Positions 65-11,952 of a DNA stretch of 42,538 nt are shown in pieces. Numbering within the stretch: position 1 is the stretch's first letter; every line of letters starts with the position of its first letter. The stretch covers positions 1-42,538 of the forward strand of contig NZ_JAUXOV010000016.1 of the NCBI RefSeq assembly GCF_030684215.1. Direction: 5' to 3'. Source of the DNA: Pseudotabrizicola sp. Its GTDB lineage: Bacteria; Pseudomonadota; Alphaproteobacteria; Rhodobacterales; Rhodobacteraceae. The notes below the pieces were generated by a model. The model was not told where the DNA came from. It saw only the letters and a program-made list of their open reading frames with translations, and made no database searches. The position numbers were made by a program, and so were the translations under genes.

Positions 65-1807
<1,743 letters not shown>

Positions 1808-1819
1808 GACCGATCTCCT

Positions 1820-2020
1820 TCAGCTGGCGGAATCATCATATCTTGCCGCGTCACGCGCGGCCTGTCGCGCCAAAAGCCGAACAAGGGCAAACAGCGCTGG
1901 ATGAGGGGGCAGGCTGGTGACGGCGGCATCTGGACACGCAAGGGGCCCAGACGGCTCAGGAGCCGCGCCTGCCTGCGCGCCCTCCTTATCCCGAACATGC
2001 CTCTTCCGTTCCCGCGCCAT
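1820..2020 (-). CDS. Small protein upstream of recombinase
   Basis: A 66-aa ORF directly upstream of and co-oriented with the recombinase, with a 12-bp gap. Its stop codon sits in TGAAGGAGATCGGTC, which also holds the recombinase ribosome-binding site, so the two are probably translationally coupled. Its own start is preceded by GGAGG about 10 bases upstream. The N-terminus is basic (MARERKRHVRDKEG) and the C-terminal third is a likely helix (ALFALVRLLARQAARDAAR). From memory, similar short ORFs ending in an ARQAAR-type helix often sit before large serine recombinases in alphaproteobacteria. Function is unknown; a recombination-directionality or regulatory role is only a guess. Confidence 0.55.
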   Translation of the reverse strand: MARERKRHVRDKEGAQAGAAPEPSGPLACPDAAVTSLPPHPALFALVRLLARQAARDAARYDDSAS

Positions 2021-2059
2021 GGCGAGGTGCCTCCGGCGCTCCGCCGGGTGCCGGCGGCA

Positions 2060-2122
2060 GCGCTATGATGGTTGATCCGTGGCCGGGCTGCAGTGCCCCT
2101 GCCGATAGGTCCATCATAGCGC
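2060..2122. repeat. 12-bp inverted repeat upstream of the recombinase genes
   Basis: GCGCTATGATGG at 2060-2071 is repeated as its exact reverse complement at 2111-2122, with a 39-bp spacer. It lies just upstream of the small ORF that precedes the recombinase, a position suited to an operator or a recombinase/accessory-factor binding site. The role is inferred from position only. Confidence 0.6.
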
Positions 2123-2607
2123 CTCATTGGCGAACCCTGATCATGTAAAACACGCAAGCTCCTGTCATCATTGTGGAAAACCTTGACCAAAATCCGGAGT
2201 TCTCTCTATAGGAAAATTTGTGCCTGCCGTTACGAGGTCCCCGATCCGCACGGGCCGCCCGCACAGGCCGGATCGGGCGGACGCCATGTTCCGGCTCAGA
2301 TCTGGAAAACTTGGAAAACTTGCCCTCCAGCATGAGTCCTCCTGAACGGCCGCAAGCCCATCCTTGTCCCTGATCCTGAAAAACCAAAGACAGAAAAAAG
2401 CCGGCGGCAGACGGAAGAGACGGGGAAGAGGAAAAAGGCACCAATCCCTACCAGAAGAGAAATACAGAAAAGAGGCGTTTAAGGAGGCCACCGAGGGAGC
2501 CTGAAAGATGAAAAAAGCTGAAAACGGGTCAGATGATAGCAGCAGGCCGCTCAATATTGAGAGATGCGCCTGTGCCCGCCCACGCCCCTCACCAAGCCTG
2601 CCACTTG
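2123..2607. other. Intergenic, no confident gene
   Basis: About 485 bases without a convincing gene. Visible items are a tandem GGAAAACTT doublet near 2306-2325 and a purine-rich stretch at about 2390-2530. A short plus-strand ORF (2510-2632) starts ATGAAAAAAGCTGAAAAC behind GGAGGCC/GGGAGCC, but its 40-residue product is compositionally poor and runs into the neighbouring gene, so I do not call it. TGAAAGATGAAAAA (2503-2516) recurs at 6320-6333. Confidence 0.5.
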
Positions 2608-3006
2608 TCAGATCCGATCGTCCGCCGCACTGAGCCGGGCCAGAAAAGCCTCGACCAGACGCTGAAACCTCGGCCAGGAAATCCGCCCCTTGCTGTGATT
2701 ATCGCCCACCGCGCAGATTTTGTCATCGACTCGGGCAGGGTGGCCCAAGCGATAACAGCCATCCAGACAGCGGATCACAAGCCCCGGCATCGCCTCAATC
2801 CCGATCACTGCGGCGGTCAGAATTGGACGCGGCGCCTGCAGTGGATATGACGCAATGCCATAAATATGGGGGATGTCGTTGTCGGCCACGGCAAACCAGT
2901 CATCAATCACCGGAAACGCGTCGACGATGTCGGGCGGGATCGGTTTGCGAGATTGAAACAGCGCCACCTCGATCTGGCTCTGCGCAAGTTTGGGGTTTTT
3001 GTGCAT
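2608..3006 (-). CDS. Small conserved protein, possibly DUF6634-like
   Basis: A 132-residue soluble protein if it starts at the ATG at 3006, which has AAGGGAG 9 bases upstream. An upstream GTG at 3060 overlaps the end of the protease gene, and an ATG at 3033 is also in frame, but neither has as good a ribosome-binding site. The segment IDDWFAVADNDIPHIYGIAS followed later by YRLGHPA recalls the DUF6634 family often seen in Rhodobacterales accessory regions; this is from memory and only moderately sure. It sits 47 bp downstream of the FtsH-like gene on the same strand and is probably co-transcribed with it, so it may be a substrate, adaptor or partner. No catalytic motif is visible. Confidence 0.65.
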   Translation of the reverse strand: MHKNPKLAQSQIEVALFQSRKPIPPDIVDAFPVIDDWFAVADNDIPHIYGIASYPLQAPRPILTAAVIGIEAMPGLVIRCLDGCYRLGHPARVDDKICAVGDNHSKGRISWPRFQRLVEAFLARLSAADDRI

Positions 3007-3053
3007 TGATGCGTCTCCCTTGAGGTCTTCCATGGCGCGTCTGCCCGGTGCCG

Positions 3054-5261
3054 TCAGCACGCGACCGGATAGTCCTGAGTGTCGCTGGCGCAGGTTGAGG
3101 TACTGCGGGTTGAGGTACTGCAGGCTGGGGTGTCCAGGCTGGCCAACAGCCCGTCGAGGCGCGCGCCGGACAGCTCCCCCTCGGCGACCAAGGCATCGGC
3201 CAAGACCATAAGCCCTGCTTGATGCGCAGCAAGCATCTGCGTCGCCCGCGCTTCCGCCGCCTCGAGGCGCGTGCGAATGCGCTCCACCAGTGCCGGATCC
3301 CGAAACCCGGCCTCCTGTACATAAACCGGGCCATAGGCCCCCAAGCCGAACTGGGTGTCGATCATCGTCGCGAGACGCGTCGCCATGGCGAGATCAGAGT
3401 CTTTGGGTCCGCCGGCCCCGGCGGAGATCGTCCCCAGAACAAGCCGTTCCGCAGCCCGCCCGGCCAGGTGGACGGCAAGATGATCGTTGAATGTCGCCTC
3501 AGTGCTCTCGCTCTCGTTGAGCGTCCGTTCGGTCAGTCCGCCGCCATTGCCGAGGCTGACACGCGTCACCCGACCCTGCTGCAGCAGATGGGCGACGATC
3601 GTATGGCCTGCTTCATGAATTGCCACGCGCCGTGTCACCGCAGCGTTCGGAGCGGGCCCCGGAAGATGAGCGTCCAGATCCGCGAGCCCGACGGGGCGTC
3701 CCGCCACCCGTGCGGCGGATTTGGCGTTGCGGATCAAGGTATCAACCGTGGCCATGCTCTGGCCGATCAGGCGACGGGACAGCCCGGTAATCTCAGCCGT
3801 TGTCAGCGCCGTGCCCAGTCCTTGGGCCAGAACGCACGCGATGGCAGCGCGGTGGGGAAGGAGCACTTCGATTTTGCGGTCGAAACGCCCGGGACGCAGG
3901 ATCGCCGGGTCCAAGGCTTGCACATCATTGCAGGCGCCAACGAGGATGACTCCACCCGCCGCGTTCAACTGATCGATCGCCAGCAACAGTCCGTTGATGA
4001 CCTGACGTCTGTAGGCCAGAGCGTGCCGGTCCCCGTCAGAACGGGAGCTCGCGGAGTCGACCTCGTCGATGAACAAGATGGCGGGCGCTGCGGCCATCGC
4101 TTCCGCAAAACTCGCGTGCATGGCGCGGAGCATGTCCCCGAGATGGCCGGAGCGCTGCCACTCCGCAAACGAGGCGCTGATGAACCGCAAGCCAGGTGCG
4201 CTGGCCATCGCCTTTGCAACATGGCTTTTGCCCGTCCCGGCAGGCCCGTGAAGGAGCAAGGAATGAGGAATATCACCCCAGAGAACCTCGCCGCGCTGCC
4301 ATGCAGCGACGTCTGCCACCAAAGCGCGGGCGGCCGCGACGGCGGGGCTGTCGGGGAGATCAGCAAGGTTTGGAGCAGAGGCCTGCGCGCAGCGGGCCGT
4401 CAACGCGTCCGCCGCGCGGCGCGGGTCGCCCTTGCGCAAGGCAGACAGCAGAACGATGTCCGTCACGCTTGCCAGAAGGTCGTCAGGGGGAAGTCTCGCC
4501 ACGATGGCCCGCGCACTGGTCTTGACGCGCGTCGGATGCGTTGCAGCCCACAGTTGCAGCAGGATTGATTGGGTAAGCGGCGCCAAGGCGATCCGTAGCG
4601 GTGCTGCCGCCAGGATGGACTGCGATGGCATTACGCCCGTCGGCAGCAGGATAACCAGTGGCGCTGTGCCCTCAAGGCCCTCCGCAAAATTGGCATCCAG
4701 CCGTGCCATCTCATTTTGTGAGACAGCACCATCCAAGATGCGCGGCGTCAGCAGAAACGTCTTTGGAACCTCATCGGACTTTTTTGCGCCGGTGCCGCCA
4801 GACAGACGGCGCGCGAGGGAGAGGACCTCGTCGTGCAGGAGCTGATTGACGACATCGAAGCAGCCGATGGGAACTCCTTCAATGAGGGTGATCGTTCCGG
4901 GCCTGGCAATTTGAGTGAGGCGCGTGATGTCGCCGAACCCTGCACAGAGCCGCAGCAGCGCCAGCCGTGTTCTCAGGCCGACCATGCGGGGCCCGGGGAT
5001 GGGATCATCCGATCCGGACGGATCGGTGAAGGCGGGGAGTACCCCCTCGGTGTCGTCCTCGATCCATGACTCAAGCTCCTCTCTCGACATGTCGCGCGGC
5101 TCTGTGGCCGAAAGCAGTCGCGGCATCAGATCGCCCAGTTTGACCGCGGCGGGTTTGGCCGCGCCCGACGGACGCAAGCTGTCGATCCGGCCAAAGACCA
5201 GCGCGGACACGCCAAGCCAGGCGGGGTGGAGGACGTCATTCATGTCATGAGGGTGGGTCAT
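3054..5261 (-). CDS. Soluble FtsH-like AAA+ ATPase / M41 zinc metalloprotease
   Basis: A 735-aa protein. Residues 1-320 form an N-terminal region I do not recognise. The AAA+ module follows: Walker A GPAGTGKS (339-346), Walker B ILFIDE (395-400), and the arginine-finger/second-region motif RPGRFDR (456-462), an arrangement typical of FtsH. The peptidase part has the zinc motif HEAGH (549-553), and GGPKDSDLA (618-626) supplies the expected third zinc ligand Asp. Both ATPase and protease sites therefore look intact. FtsH is normally anchored by two N-terminal membrane helices; none is visible here, so the protein is probably cytosolic with a different substrate-recognition domain. The start at 5261 has CCGGAG upstream. 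The C-terminus carries a low-complexity TSTRSTSTC tail encoded by a tandem repeat. It lies between a zinc-ribbon/GIY-YIG-like gene and a small unknown gene in the tRNA-associated element. Confidence 0.88.
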   Translation of the reverse strand: MTHPHDMNDVLHPAWLGVSALVFGRIDSLRPSGAAKPAAVKLGDLMPRLLSATEPRDMSREELESWIEDDTEGVLPAFTDPSGSDDPIPGPRMVGLRTRLALLRLCAGFGDITRLTQIARPGTITLIEGVPIGCFDVVNQLLHDEVLSLARRLSGGTGAKKSDEVPKTFLLTPRILDGAVSQNEMARLDANFAEGLEGTAPLVILLPTGVMPSQSILAAAPLRIALAPLTQSILLQLWAATHPTRVKTSARAIVARLPPDDLLASVTDIVLLSALRKGDPRRAADALTARCAQASAPNLADLPDSPAVAAARALVADVAAWQRGEVLWGDIPHSLLLHGPAGTGKSHVAKAMASAPGLRFISASFAEWQRSGHLGDMLRAMHASFAEAMAAAPAILFIDEVDSASSRSDGDRHALAYRRQVINGLLLAIDQLNAAGGVILVGACNDVQALDPAILRPGRFDRKIEVLLPHRAAIACVLAQGLGTALTTAEITGLSRRLIGQSMATVDTLIRNAKSAARVAGRPVGLADLDAHLPGPAPNAAVTRRVAIHEAGHTIVAHLLQQGRVTRVSLGNGGGLTERTLNESESTEATFNDHLAVHLAGRAAERLVLGTISAGAGGPKDSDLAMATRLATMIDTQFGLGAYGPVYVQEAGFRDPALVERIRTRLEAAEARATQMLAAHQAGLMVLADALVAEGELSGARLDGLLASLDTPACSTSTRSTSTCASDTQDYPVAC
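3094..3125. repeat. 16-bp tandem repeat at the 3' end of the protease gene
   Basis: Two near-identical adjacent copies of TTGAGGTACTGCGGGT-type sequence encode the STSTRSTSTC tail. It looks like a recent slippage duplication in the non-conserved C-terminus. Confidence 0.55.
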
Positions 5262-5291
5262 GTACAGGTCTCCGGAGTAAAGGATGCGGAT

Positions 5292-5312
5292 CCCGGCGGC
5301 AAAGCCGCCGGG
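5292..5312. other. Strong stem-loop between GIY-YIG-like and FtsH-like genes
   Basis: CCCGGCGGC and GCCGCCGGG form a perfect 9-bp GC stem with a 3-nt AAA loop. It lies in the 81-bp gap between two co-oriented minus-strand genes, about 30 bases before the protease start. No U-tract follows on the minus strand, so it is more likely an attenuator, RNA-processing or stability element than a standard terminator. Confidence 0.6.
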
Positions 5313-5342
5313 CTGAAATGCTCTTGGGGGAAAGGAGGGGGG

Positions 5343-6287
5343 TCAGGCGGCCAGGCGGGCGGCAAGATCGTCCAAAAGGGTGGTGATCAACGCCAGCGCA
5401 TCGGGGGTGTAGATCTCGGACTTCACCTTAATCTGCCCAACATAGCGTTCCTGCGGCACGATTGTGCAAGGGATCGTGGCCTTGATGCGCTGATGCATGC
5501 CCTGTTCCGCGTGCAGCGCCGCCGCCCCCGTCGGCAGATGGACGACCCGCAGCAGCTCGCCGGTGCGCGTCCGGCCGGATTGCAGCTGGTGGTTCAGACG
5601 CGACGCCGGGTTGCGGGAGAAGCCGAGCTTGACGACAGGGCGCCCGTCCACCAGCTGGAACCGCATCAGGTAGATCGCGCTTGGTGCCGCACTCCAGACC
5701 TCACCGCATTGCGCGCAGGCAAATCGACCCGTGGTCATATTGCCCAACGTGACGGACTGTTCTGCCCCACACGCGTCGTGGCAATAGTGGCGGTAGTTGA
5801 CGCGTTTGTCTGGATCACACCCCAGAAGCGTCCAGCCGTGTGCCGCTGCCTTAGCCATGTGCTTTGTCTGAAGGCAGGTGTCGCAGCGCAAGGCCTTGTC
5901 GCCGCGTGAAGCCTGGTCGATCAGAGCAAACTGGCGGCGCAGCTCGTGCCCACAAGAGGCCGCATAGTACCCGTAATGGCGGTTGGACGGATCGCGGCGC
6001 AGCATCGTAAGGCCCGCCGCCGCGGCCGTGGCGATGTGCTTTGCGTGCAGGCACGGGGCACAAGTCGGCTGGTAGTTCATCAGCACTGAGAGCCTCGTCT
6101 TTGTCAGGCCGCCACAGGCGTCGCAGCGCAGGGCAAGATGAAGCCGGTCGACAACCCGGGCCGCGATGGAAAACCCCTTCTGGCTGGCCATCGCAGACCA
6201 GTGCGGCAGGATCGCGCCGGGGAAAACGGGCTCATTACGGTCGTCAATCATCAAAGTGTCAGTTTGGGTAAGCTTGTTTAAAGTCAT
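5343..6287 (-). CDS. Zinc-ribbon repeat protein with C-terminal GIY-YIG/MUG113-like domain
   Basis: A 314-residue protein. The first ~210 residues contain three cysteine-pair repeats (CDACG...CAPC, CGHE...CDTC, CHDACG...CAQC); the first two are followed by similar AKHIATAAAAGLTML / TKHMAKAAAHGWTLL segments. These look like tandem treble-clef or zinc-ribbon modules. After IYLMRF, the segment VVKLGFSRNPASRLNHQL fits the core of the GIY-YIG superfamily (MUG113/T5orf172 type; K-x-G-x-S-x-x-P-x-x-R pattern), with a later Glu in HAEQGMHQRI as candidate metal ligand. A nucleic-acid binding or nicking role is inferred. The start at 6287 has GAGAGG 7-8 bases upstream. It is in a minus-strand run with the protease and separated from it by a stem-loop. 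Confidence 0.8.
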   Translation of the reverse strand: MTLNKLTQTDTLMIDDRNEPVFPGAILPHWSAMASQKGFSIAARVVDRLHLALRCDACGGLTKTRLSVLMNYQPTCAPCLHAKHIATAAAAGLTMLRRDPSNRHYGYYAASCGHELRRQFALIDQASRGDKALRCDTCLQTKHMAKAAAHGWTLLGCDPDKRVNYRHYCHDACGAEQSVTLGNMTTGRFACAQCGEVWSAAPSAIYLMRFQLVDGRPVVKLGFSRNPASRLNHQLQSGRTRTGELLRVVHLPTGAAALHAEQGMHQRIKATIPCTIVPQERYVGQIKVKSEIYTPDALALITTLLDDLAARLAA

Positions 6288-6391
6288 AAGGATACCTCTC
6301 GCCGTGACCAGGGAAAACTTGAAAGATGAAAAAGGGAAACCTGTCCAACATCGGTGTAATGCAAAGACAGGTCAGATTCTCGGGACGTCGA

Positions 6392-6889
6392 CTATGCCGC
6401 CATCGCCATCGCCATCGCCGGTGCGAAGGGAGGCTCGGGCGTGTAATCCGAGAAGCTCAACAGCAGCCCGAAGTAGTGCCGAAATGTTTGCAACAGCGCT
6501 GTCGCCCGCGCAGCGCGCGGCCCGCGGCCTGGCACCGTGTAAAACCAGGCTGTGCTCGACAGGGCTTCAGCTAGGAAGGCGTATTTTGCCGCGTCCTTCG
6601 TCAGCAGCAGGGCTTCGAAGTTCAAAGCAACGATGCGAAACCGGCGGTCCGTCGCCGTCGGAGCCATCACCAAAATGACAGCCTCCGCCGCCGAGACGAC
6701 AGCCGAGCGCGCCACCTCCGCATCCCGGAACCAGTCGTCAAACGCAAAATCACCAGACGAAATGCCCGCAATGTCGCGTTCCGCGGCGCAGAGGGTTTGC
6801 ATGGATCTCACAAGGGTCGTGAAAGCAAACTCCGCCCCTCCGAGGGGTTCCGAAACCGAGGGGGAGGTGTTATTTCCAAAAATAGGCAT
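6392..6889 (-). CDS. Hypothetical protein of the tRNA-linked element
   Basis: A 165-aa protein starting at the ATG at 6889 (MPIFGNN), chosen because AGGAGA lies 5-6 bases upstream; the longer frame to 6952 runs through the operator palindrome. The sequence is alanine-rich and mainly helical, with WFRDAEVARSAV and a conserved-looking core around FRIVALNFEALLLTKD. It has no membrane helix or catalytic motif I can identify. The C-terminus ends in AMAMAMAA, encoded by a hexanucleotide repeat. It is the first gene of the minus-strand run with the GIY-YIG-like and protease genes, and divergent from a ribbon-helix-helix protein that probably controls it. Function unknown. Confidence 0.7.
   Translation of the reverse strand: MPIFGNNTSPSVSEPLGGAEFAFTTLVRSMQTLCAAERDIAGISSGDFAFDDWFRDAEVARSAVVSAAEAVILVMAPTATDRRFRIVALNFEALLLTKDAAKYAFLAEALSSTAWFYTVPGRGPRAARATALLQTFRHYFGLLLSFSDYTPEPPFAPAMAMAMAA
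6399..6416. repeat. (GCCATC)3 microsatellite
   Basis: Three perfect copies of GCCATC plus a partial fourth lie in the 3' end of the hypothetical gene and encode its Ala-Met repeat tail. Length variation here would alter only the C-terminus. Confidence 0.7.
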
Positions 6890-6918
6890 GCCGATCTCCT
6901 TACAGGTTGGCGTGAGTA

Positions 6919-6954
6919 GAGTGAGCGTGAGGGGTGCAACCCTTACGCTCACTC
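6919..6954. promoter_or_regulatory. 36-bp palindrome, likely operator between divergent genes
   Basis: The outer arms GAGTGAGCGT (6919-6928) and ACGCTCACTC (6945-6954) are exact reverse complements; an inner AGGG/CCCT pair continues the dyad around a 6-bp centre. It lies in the 109-bp gap between the hypothetical gene start (6889, minus) and the ribbon-helix-helix gene (6999, plus), directly beside a TATAAT box at 6959-6964. Autoregulation by the small DNA-binding protein is the obvious inference. Confidence 0.72.
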
Positions 6955-6958
6955 AATA

Positions 6959-6964
6959 TATAAT
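6959..6964 (+). promoter_or_regulatory. Candidate -10 box for the ribbon-helix-helix gene
   Basis: A consensus TATAAT in a very AT-rich stretch 35 bases upstream of the start codon. The -35 position falls inside the palindrome, so a bound repressor would block this promoter. No good -35 hexamer is visible. Confidence 0.5.
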
Positions 6965-6998
6965 ATTAAAAAATATAAACAAGTGGGCGTCTCGCCAA

Positions 6999-7211
6999 AT
7001 GTCAGAAAAGCAGAGAAAAAAGCAGGGACGTCCGAGCGTCGATACCGAAGCAGTATTGGTTCGTATGTCTCGTGAGCTGTTGGAGGCGATTGACGAGCAC
7101 AGGCATGCCGATCTAGGGGTGCCTTCACGACCAGAATTGATTCGTCGAATTGTCGCAGAGTGGTTTGCTGCCAAGTCAAAAGACGGCAGTGATCAGGGTG
7201 CGGACAATTGA
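6999..7211 (+). CDS. Ribbon-helix-helix-like DNA-binding protein
   Basis: A 70-aa basic protein. After KKQGRPSVDTEA, the segment VLVRMSRELLEAIDEHR followed by SRPELIRRIVAEWF gives a strand-helix-helix pattern like Arc/CopG/MetJ-type regulators. The start at 6999 has no strong Shine-Dalgarno sequence, but an upstream extension would read through the palindrome. It is divergent from the hypothetical/GIY-YIG-like/protease run with a large palindrome between them, so it is most likely a local repressor of that run and of itself. It could also be the antitoxin-like component of the cassette, but no toxin gene is adjacent. Confidence 0.72.
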   Translation: MSEKQRKKQGRPSVDTEAVLVRMSRELLEAIDEHRHADLGVPSRPELIRRIVAEWFAAKSKDGSDQGADN

Positions 7212-7725
7212 ATCTTCACAGGGCCCATACGCAAAATGTGGCACTTCTGATGCCAACTGGTCAGAGTGCTATTGGCAGAACTGAAGATCCTGTTGAGTCC
7301 GCGGTGCGACCATCGCTCGTCGGACGGCAACCTCGCGGCTTTCCGCCATCAGCGCCCACGGAGCAGTTTAGGATGATCGCGTAGCAATGGGGCTGCGGGT
7401 CATCTTTGCCCAAGTGGGGTTGAAGATGATGAAGAAACCCTTAACGACGAAGACCCCTGCCGAGCAGGTTGTGAAGGACACCCGGCAGGGATGACCACCG
7501 GGCCTTCTGCACTTTCCAAACCTTGGTCATCAAAGCGGCGATTGGTAGCGTTCCGCCTTTGCGATCGCGATGCCAAGACCGATGTGCCCGGCCCTCTCCT
7601 GCCGTTCATCGAAGGTTGAGTGCTGCGCTGCAGCTACACTGAACCAGTCATTCGGTCTTGTCGCAGCAAATCTTGCTAGTCTACGTCGCCGATGGCAGTC
7701 CGATCCAGACGATGACCGCTTGCCT
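7212..7725. other. Intergenic with IS relic
   Basis: No intact gene. The middle holds an IS3 orfA start (7426-7494). The rest has no recognisable coding content on either strand and probably represents decayed insertion-sequence flanks marking the right side of the first accessory cassette. Confidence 0.5.
7426..7494 (+). pseudogene. IS3-family orfA, N-terminal remnant
   Basis: The 22-codon frame MMKKPLTTKTPAEQVVKDTR then stops. It matches, from memory, the beginning of IS3-group orfA proteins of the form ...EQVVKDIRRATRK.... The rest of the transposase is missing. It is a relic, useful mainly as a boundary marker. Confidence 0.6.
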
Positions 7726-7726
7726 G

Positions 7727-8743
7727 TCAGGCCAGATTGATCGGACAGGCGATGCTGATCTCGGTGTCTTCGATTTGAATATGCGGTTCGATCAGTCGGT
7801 AATACTTGCTGAAATGAAGCGATACTTGACGGGCGTCCTGACGGAAACTGTGATGAATTACGAAACTGATCTGGCCGGACTCTAGCAACTCGGTATTGGT
7901 CCGGTCGAGATCGTGCGCCGCGAAAACGTCGATACTCCGATCGACAGCGGCAAAGGCATCGAGGATGGCCCTGTTGCCGCCGCCGATCGAATAGACGCAA
8001 GCGATGTCGGGATAGGCCTCAAGCGCTTGCCCGACCAGCGCGCCGGTGGGCCGGTTCACCCCGAAGCCCTCGGAAACGGTCGCCATCGTCAGATGCGGCG
8101 CATTCTGTTCCAGATACCGGGCAAAGCCGATGCGACGGGCATCCTCCCCCTCGAACTCGCGGCTCGAAAGTGTGACGAGAACGCGCGACGGAGGCCGCGG
8201 GGCCATCCGGCTGAGAAGAAAGGCCGCCGTCGCCCCGGCACGTTCGTTGGGCATCCCGACATAGGCCAGCCGTAGCGGCGCGGCCACATCGGTGACATAG
8301 GTAACCACCGGGATTTTCCGCGCCGCTAGGTCGGCAAGGCAGGCGGCGATCCCGGGCGTTGCGGGGACTTTCAGCACGATGCCTTGCGTCCCCCGCCGCG
8401 CAATTGCCCGCAGAAGGGCGACAATCTCGCGCTCGTCCATCACTTCGGCCAGATGGAACCTTGCGCGAAAGGTCCCAAGGCGGATCAGCGGCAGTTCTGC
8501 CTCGAACGCAGCGCGCACTGCGGTCGAAAACCGCTCTGGCGCCTGCATCACGATGTCGATGGTCACCTTCGTTCCGCGCAACTGACTTACGGCGTGCTGT
8601 CGCTCCAGCTCTGCCGCGGCGGCTTGCACCCGTTCGCGCGTCAAAGCCCGCACATGGTCGCGGCCATGCAGCACTCGGTCCACGGTCGCTAGGCTAAGCC
8701 CCGCCTGATGCGCGATCTCCTTGTTGGTGAACTTTGATGCCAT
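7727..8743 (-). CDS. LacI-family transcriptional regulator
   Basis: A 338-aa regulator. The N-terminal helix-turn-helix (about residues 6-25, NKEIAHQAGLSLATVDRVL) and hinge region VRALTRERVQ are typical of LacI/PurR proteins. Residues ~60-330 form a periplasmic-binding-protein-like sensor domain with AYVGMPNERAGATAA and an ACVYSIGGGNRAILDA segment, the kind seen in regulators that sense sugars or polyols. It is divergent from the dioxygenase gene with a 90-bp gap containing palindromic sites, so it probably represses that operon and itself. The inducer cannot be read from the sequence. Confidence 0.9.
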   Translation of the reverse strand: MASKFTNKEIAHQAGLSLATVDRVLHGRDHVRALTRERVQAAAAELERQHAVSQLRGTKVTIDIVMQAPERFSTAVRAAFEAELPLIRLGTFRARFHLAEVMDEREIVALLRAIARRGTQGIVLKVPATPGIAACLADLAARKIPVVTYVTDVAAPLRLAYVGMPNERAGATAAFLLSRMAPRPPSRVLVTLSSREFEGEDARRIGFARYLEQNAPHLTMATVSEGFGVNRPTGALVGQALEAYPDIACVYSIGGGNRAILDAFAAVDRSIDVFAAHDLDRTNTELLESGQISFVIHHSFRQDARQVSLHFSKYYRLIEPHIQIEDTEISIACPINLA

Positions 8744-8752
8744 CTGGTCAGT

Positions 8753-8794
8753 TGAGGTGTTTTTGAGGTGAAAGACAACTGTTTTGATGCATCA
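8753..8794. promoter_or_regulatory. Operator candidates between LacI regulator and dioxygenase
   Basis: The short divergent region holds the perfect palindrome TGATGCATCA (8785-8794), a direct repeat TGAGGTG at 8753-8759 and 8764-8770 (11-bp period), and CAGTTG/CAACTG arms at 8749-8754 and 8776-8781. A palindrome in this position is the expected place for a LacI operator. Confidence 0.5.
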
Positions 8795-8833
8795 GTTTGC
8801 GCCACCCTTGGGCCAACCCCGGAGGAGGCCAAG

Positions 8834-10006
8834 ATGAACATCCAGACGCCCAAACCCCAGCGCACCCCAGTTTGGCTGAATGCCGACAGCGGCGACTTCG
8901 AAACCTTTCGTGAGATTGTCGGCCAGACGGCAAACCCCGCCGACACGCCGCACGCCGCGCAGGTGATACGCAACATCCCGATCTACGAAGGCGCGTCAGT
9001 TGATGCCGCCTCCGCCGATCCGGCAACCCGTCAGGCGATGATGGAGGAATGGGCAGATGTCTTCGCCCATGGAGCGGGGATCATCGTGATCCGTCAGGGG
9101 CTTGCCGATCACGCCGTGATTGACCGCGCCAGCATCGTGTTCGACCAGATCATCGCGGACGAGAAACAGGCTGCCAAGGGCGGCGGCGACCATTTCGCCA
9201 AACCGGGTGCGAATGACCGGATCTGGAACTCGCTGGAAAAGCATTGCCTTGCCGACCCCGCCAACTTTGCCGCCTATTTCAGTTCGCAGGGCATCGCCAT
9301 GGCGGCCGAAGCCTGGCTCGGGCCAGCCTCGCAGATGACGGCTCAGGTCAACCGGGTGAATCCGGGCGGCGCTGCGCAGACCCCGCACCGCGACTATCAC
9401 CTCGGTTTCATGTCGGCGACGCGGATGGCGCAGTTTCCCGCCCATATCCATGCCGTGTCGCCCACTTTGACGCTGCAGGGCGCTGTGGCGCATTGTGATA
9501 TGCCGGTCGAGACCGGCCCGACGATGCTGTTGCCATTCTCGCAACAGTTCTACGAGGGTTACCTTGCCTTCTCGCGGCCCGAATTTCAGGCCTATTTCGC
9601 GGCGAATTATGTGCAGCTGCCGCTGCACAAGGGCGATCTCGTGTTCTTCAACCCCGCAGTGATGCACGGTGCGGGCACCAACCACACCACGGATCGGTTT
9701 CGCATGGTGAATCTGCTGCAAGTGTCGTCTGCCTTTGGCCGAGCGATGGAGACGGTCAACCGCACCCGCATGCTGCGCGCGCTTTATCCGGCGATACGGA
9801 CAGCGCGGGGGCTGAACATTGCCAACGTCATCGCAGCTTCGGCCGAGGGCTATCCGTTCCCCACCAATCTGGACAGCAACCCGCCCGTGGGTGGGCTTGC
9901 GCCGAAAACTCAGGCCGACTTTCTGCGCGAGGCGCTGGCGCAGGATCAGGGCGAGGACGCGTTCTTTGGCCTGCTCGACGCGCTTGACGCCAAGAACCGG
10001 TCTTAG
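8834..10006 (+). CDS. Phytanoyl-CoA dioxygenase (PhyH)-family Fe(II)/2-oxoglutarate enzyme
   Basis: 390 aa from the ATG at 8834, preceded by GGAGGAGG; the longer frame from 8768 lacks a ribosome-binding site and crosses the operator region. The iron ligands are visible: H185 and D187 in PHRDYH, and distal H278 in MHGAG, with an Arg at 288-290 (RFR) placed to bind 2-oxoglutarate. This is the PhyH double-stranded beta-helix pattern. The substrate is unknown. It is followed after 8 bp by an SDR dehydrogenase and controlled, by position, by the divergent LacI regulator, suggesting hydroxylation then oxidation of a small polar molecule rather than fatty-acid metabolism. Confidence 0.88.
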   Translation: MNIQTPKPQRTPVWLNADSGDFETFREIVGQTANPADTPHAAQVIRNIPIYEGASVDAASADPATRQAMMEEWADVFAHGAGIIVIRQGLADHAVIDRASIVFDQIIADEKQAAKGGGDHFAKPGANDRIWNSLEKHCLADPANFAAYFSSQGIAMAAEAWLGPASQMTAQVNRVNPGGAAQTPHRDYHLGFMSATRMAQFPAHIHAVSPTLTLQGAVAHCDMPVETGPTMLLPFSQQFYEGYLAFSRPEFQAYFAANYVQLPLHKGDLVFFNPAVMHGAGTNHTTDRFRMVNLLQVSSAFGRAMETVNRTRMLRALYPAIRTARGLNIANVIAASAEGYPFPTNLDSNPPVGGLAPKTQADFLREALAQDQGEDAFFGLLDALDAKNRS

Positions 10007-10014
10007 GGCGCACA

Positions 10015-10827
10015 ATGAACCGGATCGACGGAAAGATTGCGCTGGTCACCGGCGGCACCCAGGGTCTGGGGGCCGCCATCGCCCGTCTGTTTGTCACTGC
10101 GGGTGCTGCGGGCGTCGCGATTGTCGGCCGTGATCAGCCCAAGGGCGACGCACTGGCCAGCGAGATCATGTCCAATAGCGGCGTGCCGGTGCAGATGATC
10201 ACAGCCGACCTGGGCGAGATGGCGGATGTCATGCGCGTTGTCGCGACCGCCGAAGCGCGGTTCGGGCGGATCGACATTCTGGTCAATGCGGCGGGCCTTA
10301 CCGATCGTGGCAACTTACTGAACACGTCGCCCGACTTGTTCGACCGGATCTTTGCCGTCAACGTCCGTGCGCCGTTCTTTTTGATGCAGGAAGCGGTGAA
10401 GTGCATGGCGCGGGCGGGGGTTGACGGGCGGATCCTCAACATCGGCTCCGCCTCGGAACGCGCTGGACAGCCGTTCCTTGCGGCCTATTCGGCATCTAAA
10501 GGCGCGCTGGCCACGCTGACCCGCAATTCCGGCTTTGCGCTGATGCGCAACCGCGTTCGGGTCAACCAACTGGATATCGGCTGGATGCTGTCGGAAAATG
10601 AAAAGACGACCCAACTCCAGGAATCGGGCGATCCGGCCTGGCAGGAAAAGGCCGAAGCCGCGTTGCCGTTCGGCCGGCTTCTGGACCCCGAAGAGGTGGC
10701 CAAAGCGGTCTTGTGGATGGTTTCGGATGACAGCGGCATGATGACGGGTGCTGTGGTGCATTTCGACCAATCGGTCTGGGGCGGCTATGACGGCCAAGCC
10801 CCGTCACCCGCCAGACCGCTGGAATAG
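10015..10827 (+). CDS. SDR-family oxidoreductase
   Basis: A 270-aa short-chain dehydrogenase. The cofactor motif TGGTQGLG is near residue 13, NAAG marks the central strand, and the catalytic Ser/YSASK set (IGSAS...AAYSASK) is intact. It starts 8 bp after the dioxygenase stop, so the two are co-transcribed and probably act in one pathway. The C-terminus (YDGQAPSPARPLE) extends slightly beyond the usual end. Specific substrate not determinable. Confidence 0.9.
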   Translation: MNRIDGKIALVTGGTQGLGAAIARLFVTAGAAGVAIVGRDQPKGDALASEIMSNSGVPVQMITADLGEMADVMRVVATAEARFGRIDILVNAAGLTDRGNLLNTSPDLFDRIFAVNVRAPFFLMQEAVKCMARAGVDGRILNIGSASERAGQPFLAAYSASKGALATLTRNSGFALMRNRVRVNQLDIGWMLSENEKTTQLQESGDPAWQEKAEAALPFGRLLDPEEVAKAVLWMVSDDSGMMTGAVVHFDQSVWGGYDGQAPSPARPLE

Positions 10828-10890
10828 GTTTCGGCACGGCACTATACGCAGACAGCACTGAAAGACGTGCTAACGACGGAAGAAAGATTG

Positions 10891-11952
10891 ATGTCACGGC
10901 TATTCGACACCCTCAAAATTGGCAGTCTGGAGCTGCCGAACCGCATCATTATGGCGCCCCTGACGCGCATGCGGGCAGGCAGCGAGCGTGTACCAAATGC
11001 GATGATGGCGGAATATTACCAGCAGCGGGCAAGCGCGGGCCTGATCTTGAGCGAGGCAACGTCTGTTTCGCCGCAAGGTGTTGGCTATCGGGGAACGCCC
11101 GGCTTGTGGAACGATGCGCAGGTCGTCGGCTGGAAACTCGTCACCACGGCCGTGCATGAAGCTGGCGGCCGTATTTTCTCGCAACTTTGGCACGTCGGTC
11201 GCATTTCCGACCCAGAATTGCTCGGCGGCCAACTGCCCGTTGCGCCGAGCGCGATTGCGGCAGCCGGGCATGTTTCAACGCTCCGGCCAAAGCGGCCCCA
11301 TCCGGTGCCGCGCCCTCTTCGGACAGACGAAATTCCCAAAATCGTGGCAGATTTCCGTCACGGGGCAGAAAATGCCATGCGGGCGAGGTTTGATGGCGTC
11401 GAGCTGCATGCGGCAAATGGCTATCTGATCGACCAATTTTTGCAGGACAAAACCAATCACCGCACCGATCACTACGGCGGATCGGTTGAGAACCGCGCCC
11501 GCTTCCTGCTTGAAATCCTAGATGCAGCTATCGAGGTCTGGGGTGCGGATCGGGTGGGGGTCCATCTTCGGCCCCGCGGTGAAGAACACGACATGGGCGA
11601 CAGCAACCCCAAAGCTATTTTCGGCTATGTCGCTGACGAGCTCAAAAAGCGCCAAATCGCCTTTATCTTCGTGCGAGAGACCGAAGGCCATGACAGCCTT
11701 CTAGGGGAAATTAAGCGCCGATTTGGCGGACCTGTCATCGCTAACGAACTGATGACCAAAGAGGACGGCGAACTTTTTATTGAAGCTGGTTCTGCCGATG
11801 CTCTGGCCTTTGGCCGCGACTATATCGCTACTCCCGATCTCGTTGAACGTCTCACGTTGGGTTTGCCCTTCAATCAGCAGAACAAGGAAACATTCTACGG
11901 GGAAGGCCCGGAAGGATACACCGACTATCCCCGCATGGTGCCGGGCGGTTGA
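10891..11952 (+). CDS. nemA: Old yellow enzyme / N-ethylmaleimide reductase-like flavoenzyme
   Basis: 353 aa from the ATG at 10891 (GGAAGAAAG upstream). An FMN-dependent TIM-barrel ene-reductase: IIMAPLTRMRA at the N-terminus, substrate-binding H173 and N176 in ELHAANGYL, and HYGGSVENR for FMN/active-site structure. It would reduce activated C=C bonds (enones, maleimides, nitro compounds) with NAD(P)H. One oddity: the strand usually reading GVRLSP reads GVHLRPRG here, so the conserved Arg is His; this may weaken FMN binding or reflect divergence. It follows the SDR by 63 bp on the same strand but probably has its own promoter. The symbol is a family name, not an orthology claim. Confidence 0.85.
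   Translation: MSRLFDTLKIGSLELPNRIIMAPLTRMRAGSERVPNAMMAEYYQQRASAGLILSEATSVSPQGVGYRGTPGLWNDAQVVGWKLVTTAVHEAGGRIFSQLWHVGRISDPELLGGQLPVAPSAIAAAGHVSTLRPKRPHPVPRPLRTDEIPKIVADFRHGAENAMRARFDGVELHAANGYLIDQFLQDKTNHRTDHYGGSVENRARFLLEILDAAIEVWGADRVGVHLRPRGEEHDMGDSNPKAIFGYVADELKKRQIAFIFVRETEGHDSLLGEIKRRFGGPVIANELMTKEDGELFIEAGSADALAFGRDYIATPDLVERLTLGLPFNQQNKETFYGEGPEGYTDYPRMVPGG

Follow-up and report, generated by a model that had tools for sequence, protein, structure and literature searches.

The DNA considered here is a 42,538-nucleotide contig of Pseudotabrizicola sp. (NZ_JAUXOV010000016.1; hereafter the window, contig 77 of the 81 contigs of a 4.44 Mb genome), and within it a small gene cassette around an FtsH-like protease, which an earlier reading of the letters alone (the sequence-only reading) had singled out as an accessory system. 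All cassette reading frames between positions 2608 and 7211 are open and intact. Outward from a tRNA gene, the order is serine recombinase, DUF6634-like gene, protease, nuclease-like gene and small gene, all on the minus strand, followed by a gene for a ribbon-helix-helix (RHH) regulator on the plus strand (Table 1). The adjoining integrase was thus correctly noticed and belongs to the large serine recombinases. Likewise, the divergent RHH regulator stands, but its start is best placed at 6999 rather than 6552. The start of the small protein is best set at 6889, which is preceded by GGAGATC, rather than at 6952. Of the two small proteins formerly listed as unknown, both reading frames are open, but the one next to the recombinase turned out to be DUF6634-like; a Pfam scan of this copy at E 1 gave no match, and the gene is not constant among relatives. 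A consensus scan of positions 6700-7300 recognised no promoters.

Table 1. Coordinates of the tRNA gene, the recombinase and the cassette features in the window.
Feature	Position	Strand	Evidence
tRNA-Met, insertion target	65..141	+	ARAGORN
Large serine recombinase, last 44 bases inside the tRNA gene	98..1807	-	Pfam Resolvase 2.2e-23, Recombinase 7.5e-21, Zn_ribbon_recom 3.9e-8; PHROG integrase 2.4e-87
DUF6634-like small protein, accessory	2608..3033	-	profile from three DUF6634-type neighbours matches at 1e-6
FtsH-like AAA+/M41 protease, 735 amino acids, own N-domain	3054..5261	-	Pfam, alignment, structural model (mean predicted local distance difference test, pLDDT, 82.7)
Nuclease-like protein: three zinc ribbons and a GIY-YIG-like C-terminal domain, exchangeable slot	5343..6287	-	PHROG endonuclease family 2e-8, alignments, model pLDDT 90
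Small fast-evolving helical protein	6392..6889	-	family alignment (relatives 15-25% identical)
Covarying hairpin, structure on the RHH strand	6919..6954	+	folding, covariation, covariance model
Divergent RHH regulator, 70 amino acids	6999..7211	+	Pfam RHH_1 7.5e-5 (over cut-off); position kept in relatives

We asked how often these genes occur together. The nuclease-like gene as the sole query was found at 24 places in 19 of 295 genomes of the host's family. When named genomes were scanned using an alignment of seven nuclease sequences, we obtained 42 loci (identifiers L; genomes are denoted G), in which the protease lies directly downstream in 38, a small-protein match is present in 39 (weak in L119, 2e-5; L120, 4e-4; and L144, 2e-4), a divergent RHH gene in 29, all four genes in 26 and a serine recombinase in 10. 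In the four loci without protease, the sequence ends within the nuclease (L139) or 465 bases past it (L141), or the nuclease itself is fragmented (L140) or partial (L145). Several of the 38 downstream proteases are split in two or shortened. The locus sets overlap, and L067/L123, L068/L138 and L071/L125 are the same places. The record titles of 41 of the 42 loci name what we take to be Rhodobacterales, and one names Alphaproteobacteria only.

The genes likewise occur on plasmids. Among 72,556 plasmid records, the protease was found in 48 at 1e-30, a count that includes distant relatives, and the nuclease in 17. The copies L094 and L095 carry RHH gene, small gene, GIY-YIG gene and protease in that order, while L100 and L101 carry RHH gene, small gene and nuclease without protease, with the small-gene profile recognising L101 only. 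Among 385 genomes from the host's class, genuine relatives outside the family are present in G571, G481 (twice), G631 and G576. Phage records contained no nuclease match; the protease query matched 45 of them, none covering 80% of the query, and the 20 listed are partial matches from about residue 327. Viral contigs gave a single nuclease locus. Judged from these sequence comparisons, the gene set is a real co-inherited accessory module of protease and nuclease-like protein on tRNA-linked mobile DNA and plasmids; its homologues are not scattered singletons, the pattern that the sequence-only reading had named as speaking against its own proposal.

The protease matches both expected Pfam domains over cut-off (AAA, 1.9e-28; Peptidase_M41, 1.2e-15). 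Walker A (G339, G342, G344, K345), Walker B (D399, E400), R456/R459, the HExxH residues H549, E550 and H553, and D623 are invariant in all 25 aligned relatives, bearing out the claim of an AAA+ ATPase with a complete M41 site. The accompanying claim that it has no membrane anchor is supported by the hydropathy of the first 330 residues, where the 19-residue peak of 1.61 lies on a predicted strand, compared with 2.57 and 1.95 in the two FtsH proteins of the same genome. As 12 of 48 relatives exceed 1.6 in this region (maximum 1.89), absence of the anchor is likely but not certain.

Could this protein simply be a diverged copy of a housekeeping FtsH, set among unrelated neighbours? Its AAA and M41 half is clearly FtsH-related: with the protease as query, 290 of the 295 family genomes match at 1e-10, nearly all through housekeeping FtsH from about residue 320 at about 1e-30, and the 50 listed matches of its structural model (34 sequences; pLDDT 82.7; predicted template modelling score 0.65) to the PDB are all FtsH-type or kin (FtsH, YME1, AFG3L2, chloroplast FtsHi). 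In a tree of 52 rows (50 members of the protease family and the genome's two FtsHs), however, the family is separate with a support of 100. Matches at 1.3e-51 or better are sporadic (30 places in 24 of the 295 genomes, including the window), 27 of them beginning before residue 260, and the fixed neighbours evident from the co-occurrence counts contradict the idea as well. We therefore rejected this explanation on the grounds of tree separation and sporadic occurrence, and regard it as highly improbable. The FtsH matches do not reach the N-terminus, which had been the region in question, and against NCBIfam FtsH_fam the protein scores 150.3 bits, below the curated 600 bits. A separate group of relatives of about 900 amino acids, found in seven of the 385 class genomes, has the same AAA-M41 half; those in L194-L197 stand by eye among housekeeping genes, look non-mobile, and were left out of the set for these surroundings.

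In the model, the N-domain is alpha/beta and helical at about residues 95-300. Among viral models, giant-virus M41 proteins rank at the top; at ranks 9-11 stand phage proteins named ycf46, whose alignments span 501-556 columns and hint that the N-domain may be an inactive AAA-like domain. When the profiles of the N-domain and the AAA domain were compared, no signal for a second AAA domain emerged, and this candidate was dropped.

The protein encoded upstream of the protease had been read as zinc-ribbon/GIY-YIG-like. In Pfam, the window copy gave only a sub-threshold zinc ribbon; among 35 relatives, sub-threshold matches to T5orf172 (17) and MUG113 (14) were obtained. Of the 12 zinc-ligand positions, 11 are invariant in all 35 and the twelfth (C173) is kept in at least 90%. 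The residues Y206, K220, G222, R230, E261 and H265 are invariant in all 35, and we take Y206, R230 and E261 to be the GIY-YIG catalytic-type Tyr, Arg and Glu.

Where the GIY-YIG-like gene is missing beside the same protease, its place is often filled by other nuclease-type genes, namely PDDEXK_5-like, CoiA-like, DUF2130 or metallophosphoesterase genes. PDDEXK_5-like genes occupy it in L060, L061, L063, L080, L096, L103 and L189. Those of L080, which matches only weakly (0.011), and of L060 and L061, which Pfam does not match, are assigned through kinship within the group; the gene in L096 is annotated as 'group I intron-associated PD-(D/E)XK endonuclease', and that in L189 exceeds the Pfam gathering threshold (1.2e-6) and matches a profile from the other six copies. 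CoiA-like genes are found in L073, where the match exceeds the gathering threshold (8.3e-5), and in L069, where it does not (0.13). L191 carries DUF2130 (1.7e-68) before the protease and a metallophosphoesterase (4.5e-13) after it, and a metallophosphoesterase follows the protease in L097 and L098 (Pfam) and L099 (annotation) as well. In L190 and L192 the neighbour of 235-237 amino acids is PD-(D/E)XK-like by eye only. On the best protease tree the nuclease types need nine changes, few of which are forced by well-supported branches; swapping of the nuclease across the tree is thus likely, though not proven. As a side observation, the genome G000 contains a second protease copy (L073; G000:C47:11901-13934), 34% identical, split by a TGA and situated behind the CoiA-like nuclease; no small gene, RHH gene or hairpin was matched there.

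An inverted repeat that had escaped the sequence-only reading lies in the spacer separating the RHH gene from the small gene; its arms vary between copies yet remain complementary. Folding placed a hairpin at the expected position in 49 of 57 RHH loci (43 distinct), and a covariance model built later recovered seven of the remaining eight, L084 not being found. The z-scores of 12 unselected folds ranged from -0.56 to -5.89. In 16 equal-length copies read on the RHH strand, which were chosen by folding and hence favour pairing, 94.2% of 224 cells are standard pairs and 13 of 14 pairs change on both sides. Double-sided changes occur in 56 cells of this set compared with 15.3 +/- 3.4 in shuffles, and sliding the partner arm by 1-3 columns lowers pairing to 40-53%. 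In a control anchored on the downstream motif alone, 27 of 48 sequences pair at 10 or more of the 14 positions and 21 remain below 10 at fixed length; with arms exchanged between loci, the comparison value is 4.9 on average and 12 at most.

Our first model had been built on the small-gene strand, where 41 of the 224 cells are not Watson-Crick; 28 of these are A-C or C-A and 3 are G-U, and the A-C cells turn into G-U when the hairpin is read along the RHH gene. In 40 of 43 cases the RHH strand folds more stably as RNA, despite the set having been selected on the opposite strand. Because of this G-U skew and the greater stability, the small-gene strand was rejected, and the comparative evidence assigns the predicted structure, be it RNA or single-stranded DNA, to the plus strand of the window. 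A base-by-base operator for the RHH protein is unlikely, given that the arms diverge widely between copies.

At E 0.01, 59 of 97 sources, 16 of them training rows, gave a covariance-model match on the RHH strand, and they include GIY-YIG, PDDEXK_5-type (L061, L063, L080, L103) and CoiA-type (L069) loci; the model found none in L060, L073, L097-L099 and L189-L192, and in L096 a match on the other strand only. The best match in 18 random regions had an E of 0.11, and a search of window positions 2000-9000 with 4227 Rfam models gave no match at E 0.1. In the 295 family genomes, the hairpin occurs at 1e-5 at 15 places in 13 genomes, with an RHH gene adjoining 14 of them (the exception is in G142). 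Next to these 14 the protease is intact in six (G254, G026, G086 contig 8, G000, G205, G013) and broken in two (G067, G257); two have a nuclease without protease (G081, G071), and in four neither is visible (G086 contig 11, G211 twice, G247), with three of the four lying at contig ends. At L245 (G026:C44:172224), the RHH gene and hairpin are present but the small gene, nuclease and protease are all missing; the genes around them appear by eye to come from phages.

The pairing of hairpin and RHH gene even at loci with neither nuclease nor protease in view (L240, L242-L245) bears on another explanation, namely that the two constitute a transfer or replication site acting as a single-stranded DNA hairpin, and that nuclease and protease process DNA-protein complexes when the element excises or transfers or when a second element is excluded. 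The strand specificity of the hairpin would agree with such a role, as would relaxase or NikA-like genes near some copies (L066, L067-type, L096, L101). However, at many copies no relaxase is in view, the hairpin stays while the nuclease types change, and the integrases differ between carriers. We consider it unlikely that the genes serve to control transfer or the life cycle of the element.

With regard to the carriers, the recombinase shares its 44-base overlap with tRNA-Met in the window and at 13 other loci (L060, L063, L068/L138, L077, L079, L081, L088, L090, L108, L109, L117, L132 and L143; L108 and L109 look like near copies). As the overlap is 44 bases every time, the target tRNA, presumably of the initiator type, supplies the end of the recombinase gene, and the suggested link of the island to a tRNA is borne out. 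Elsewhere the vehicles are DUF6538/phage-integrase-type integrases near other tRNAs, relaxase-bearing elements and plasmids, and the module is therefore not part of one recombination machine. Direct repeats of the tRNA end, such as would delimit the island on its far side, occur in the window at chance level only, and an empty-site comparison with the flank 7212-8743, which includes a repeated stretch (7342-7487), yielded no informative relative. That stretch, perhaps an insertion sequence remnant, recurs twice more in the same genome (contigs 50 and 19), at full length in the relatives G304 and G021 and partly in G307. At L066, a module copy at 6-12.7 kb lies beside helix-turn-helix, NikA-like and relaxase genes and ends near a tRNA-Phe, resembling a mobilisable island. 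Beside the island in the window, positions 7727-11952 hold a LacI-type regulator (Pfam) followed by what appear by eye to be dioxygenase, SDR and OYE-type oxidoreductase genes, an ordinary-looking catabolic cluster.

The module has partial counterparts among known systems. With FtsH, YME1 and AFG3L2 (Pfam PF01434 with PF00004) the protease shares the order of AAA and M41, the motif residues and the cytosolic fold; it differs by the lack of a clear membrane anchor, by an N-domain (about 300 residues) to which FtsH shows no match, and by its sporadic, mobile occurrence with fixed partner genes. Ycf46-type AAA proteins are a counterpart through the phage alignments described above, but have, to our knowledge, no M41 domain. 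IetAS is a defence system composed of an AAA ATPase and an S8 protease. Here too an ATPase is linked to a protease, and the AAA domain of the cassette protein matches the IetA models of PADLOC at 4.8e-23 and the NCBIfam entry 'anti-phage ATPase IteA' at 5.8e-21 (75 bits, below the curated 510). In contrast to IetAS, the M41 protease is fused to the ATPase, the partner is nuclease-like, and a separate S8 protein is absent, a Pfam scan of seven window proteins having given no S8 match. The nuclease-like protein resembles MUG113 and T5orf172 GIY-YIG nucleases in its C-terminal motif residues, but has three tandem zinc ribbons in front and a constant protease partner. We know of no described system of this make-up, as the sequence-only reading had stated, and none emerged from the full-text literature judged by its listings, a coverage that leaves preprints and most subscription journals outside.

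Because of the co-inheritance, the invariant motif residues and the changing nuclease beside a constant protease, we regard the genes as one working unit. From its composition the unit looks like an undescribed defence-type or element-protection system. Specifically, we favour, tentatively and as an almost even call, a self-contained mobile cargo module that would act on invading or competing DNA as a protease-gated nuclease system. In such a system the RHH protein would repress the divergent genes, with the hairpin adding a second level of control. The protease would assemble as an unfoldase-protease ring, and the small protein, the most variable part of the cassette, would keep the nuclease inactive or sense the trigger. 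Upon challenge, the protease might destroy its small-protein partner or a protein of the invader, whereupon the nuclease would cut DNA.

Several observations weigh against the protease-gated nuclease reading. In the structural comparisons, the best PDB fold match of the nuclease-like model has an E of 0.04, none reaching 0.001, and is not a nuclease, so that the activity is predicted only; the GIY-YIG protein Slx1 appears at rank 18 (probability 0.77, E 0.26), and the four weak matches of the GIY-YIG-like profile to solved structures (E 0.018 and up) include no GIY-YIG nuclease. Four loci (L074, L076, L078, L102) have the protease without a recognised nuclease beside it. PADLOC matches the protease through its AAA domain only and leaves the other cassette genes unmatched. 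Proximity to defence genes, which the sequence-only reading had named as a check, speaks for the protease-gated reading when models are counted: at 1e-15, a random draw of 129 from 236 flank proteins matched 134 PADLOC models, compared with 19 for 130 of 265 control proteins, counts in which many models describe one gene and the controls are random regions rather than other islands. By gene, the excess shrinks to about 8 of 129 compared with 3 to 5 of 130, which is not significant. The flank genes, by name among the 25 of 134 families listed, are MzaC, MzaE, a type I restriction endonuclease and specificity subunit, RT UG13a, PD-T7-1, Cas1 and NsnB, and the control genes a type II methyltransferase, SIR2, MkoC, and mad2 and MkoA, the last two maybe one protein; matches to mad3 (5 members), SspA and DndA look generic. 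Enrichment of defence genes around the module is thus only suggestive. In examples of our own choosing, and judged by eye, the neighbours of annotated copies on plasmids include genes for SIR2, for S8 plus ATPase, for a KwaB-like protein, and for SAVED plus nucleotidyltransferase. From the original idea of a defence, anti-plasmid or element-maintenance system there remains a co-inherited accessory protease-nuclease module on mobile DNA, whose role in defence, against plasmids or in maintenance is putative.

Maintenance of the element is the alternative in which the nuclease acts as a toxin, with either the small protein or the RHH protein as its unstable antitoxin, and the protease governs antitoxin turnover, such that loss of the element is punished. 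It would account for an RHH regulator preceding an operon with a nuclease-like protein, for the occurrence on plasmids and integrated elements, and for the common broken or partial copies. Yet three to five genes with a large ATPase exceed the usual toxin-antitoxin pairs, and seven loci keep the nuclease with the protease absent (L088, L091, L100, L101) or broken (L075, L087, L142), although frameshifts in the broken copies could be sequencing errors, a caution that also applies to our preferred reading. The protease is thus at least dispensable for surviving the nuclease, and we judge an addiction module rather improbable. By the same token the protease is probably not an antitoxin, and a protease restraining a toxic nuclease is unlikely; because these loci do without it, activation of the nuclease, or its release from the small protein, fits better.

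Returning to the protease-gated system, the module may, though we hold this still more tentatively, represent a new class of mobile, immune-type systems of Alphaproteobacteria with a constant soluble FtsH-like protease core, a swappable nuclease effector, and control by an RHH repressor together with a new RNA or single-stranded DNA hairpin. The hairpin provides a handle for finding more copies and a candidate control element. If the reading is true, FtsH-type proteolysis would have been drawn into bacterial conflicts with mobile DNA, a single constant protease working with several types of nuclease.

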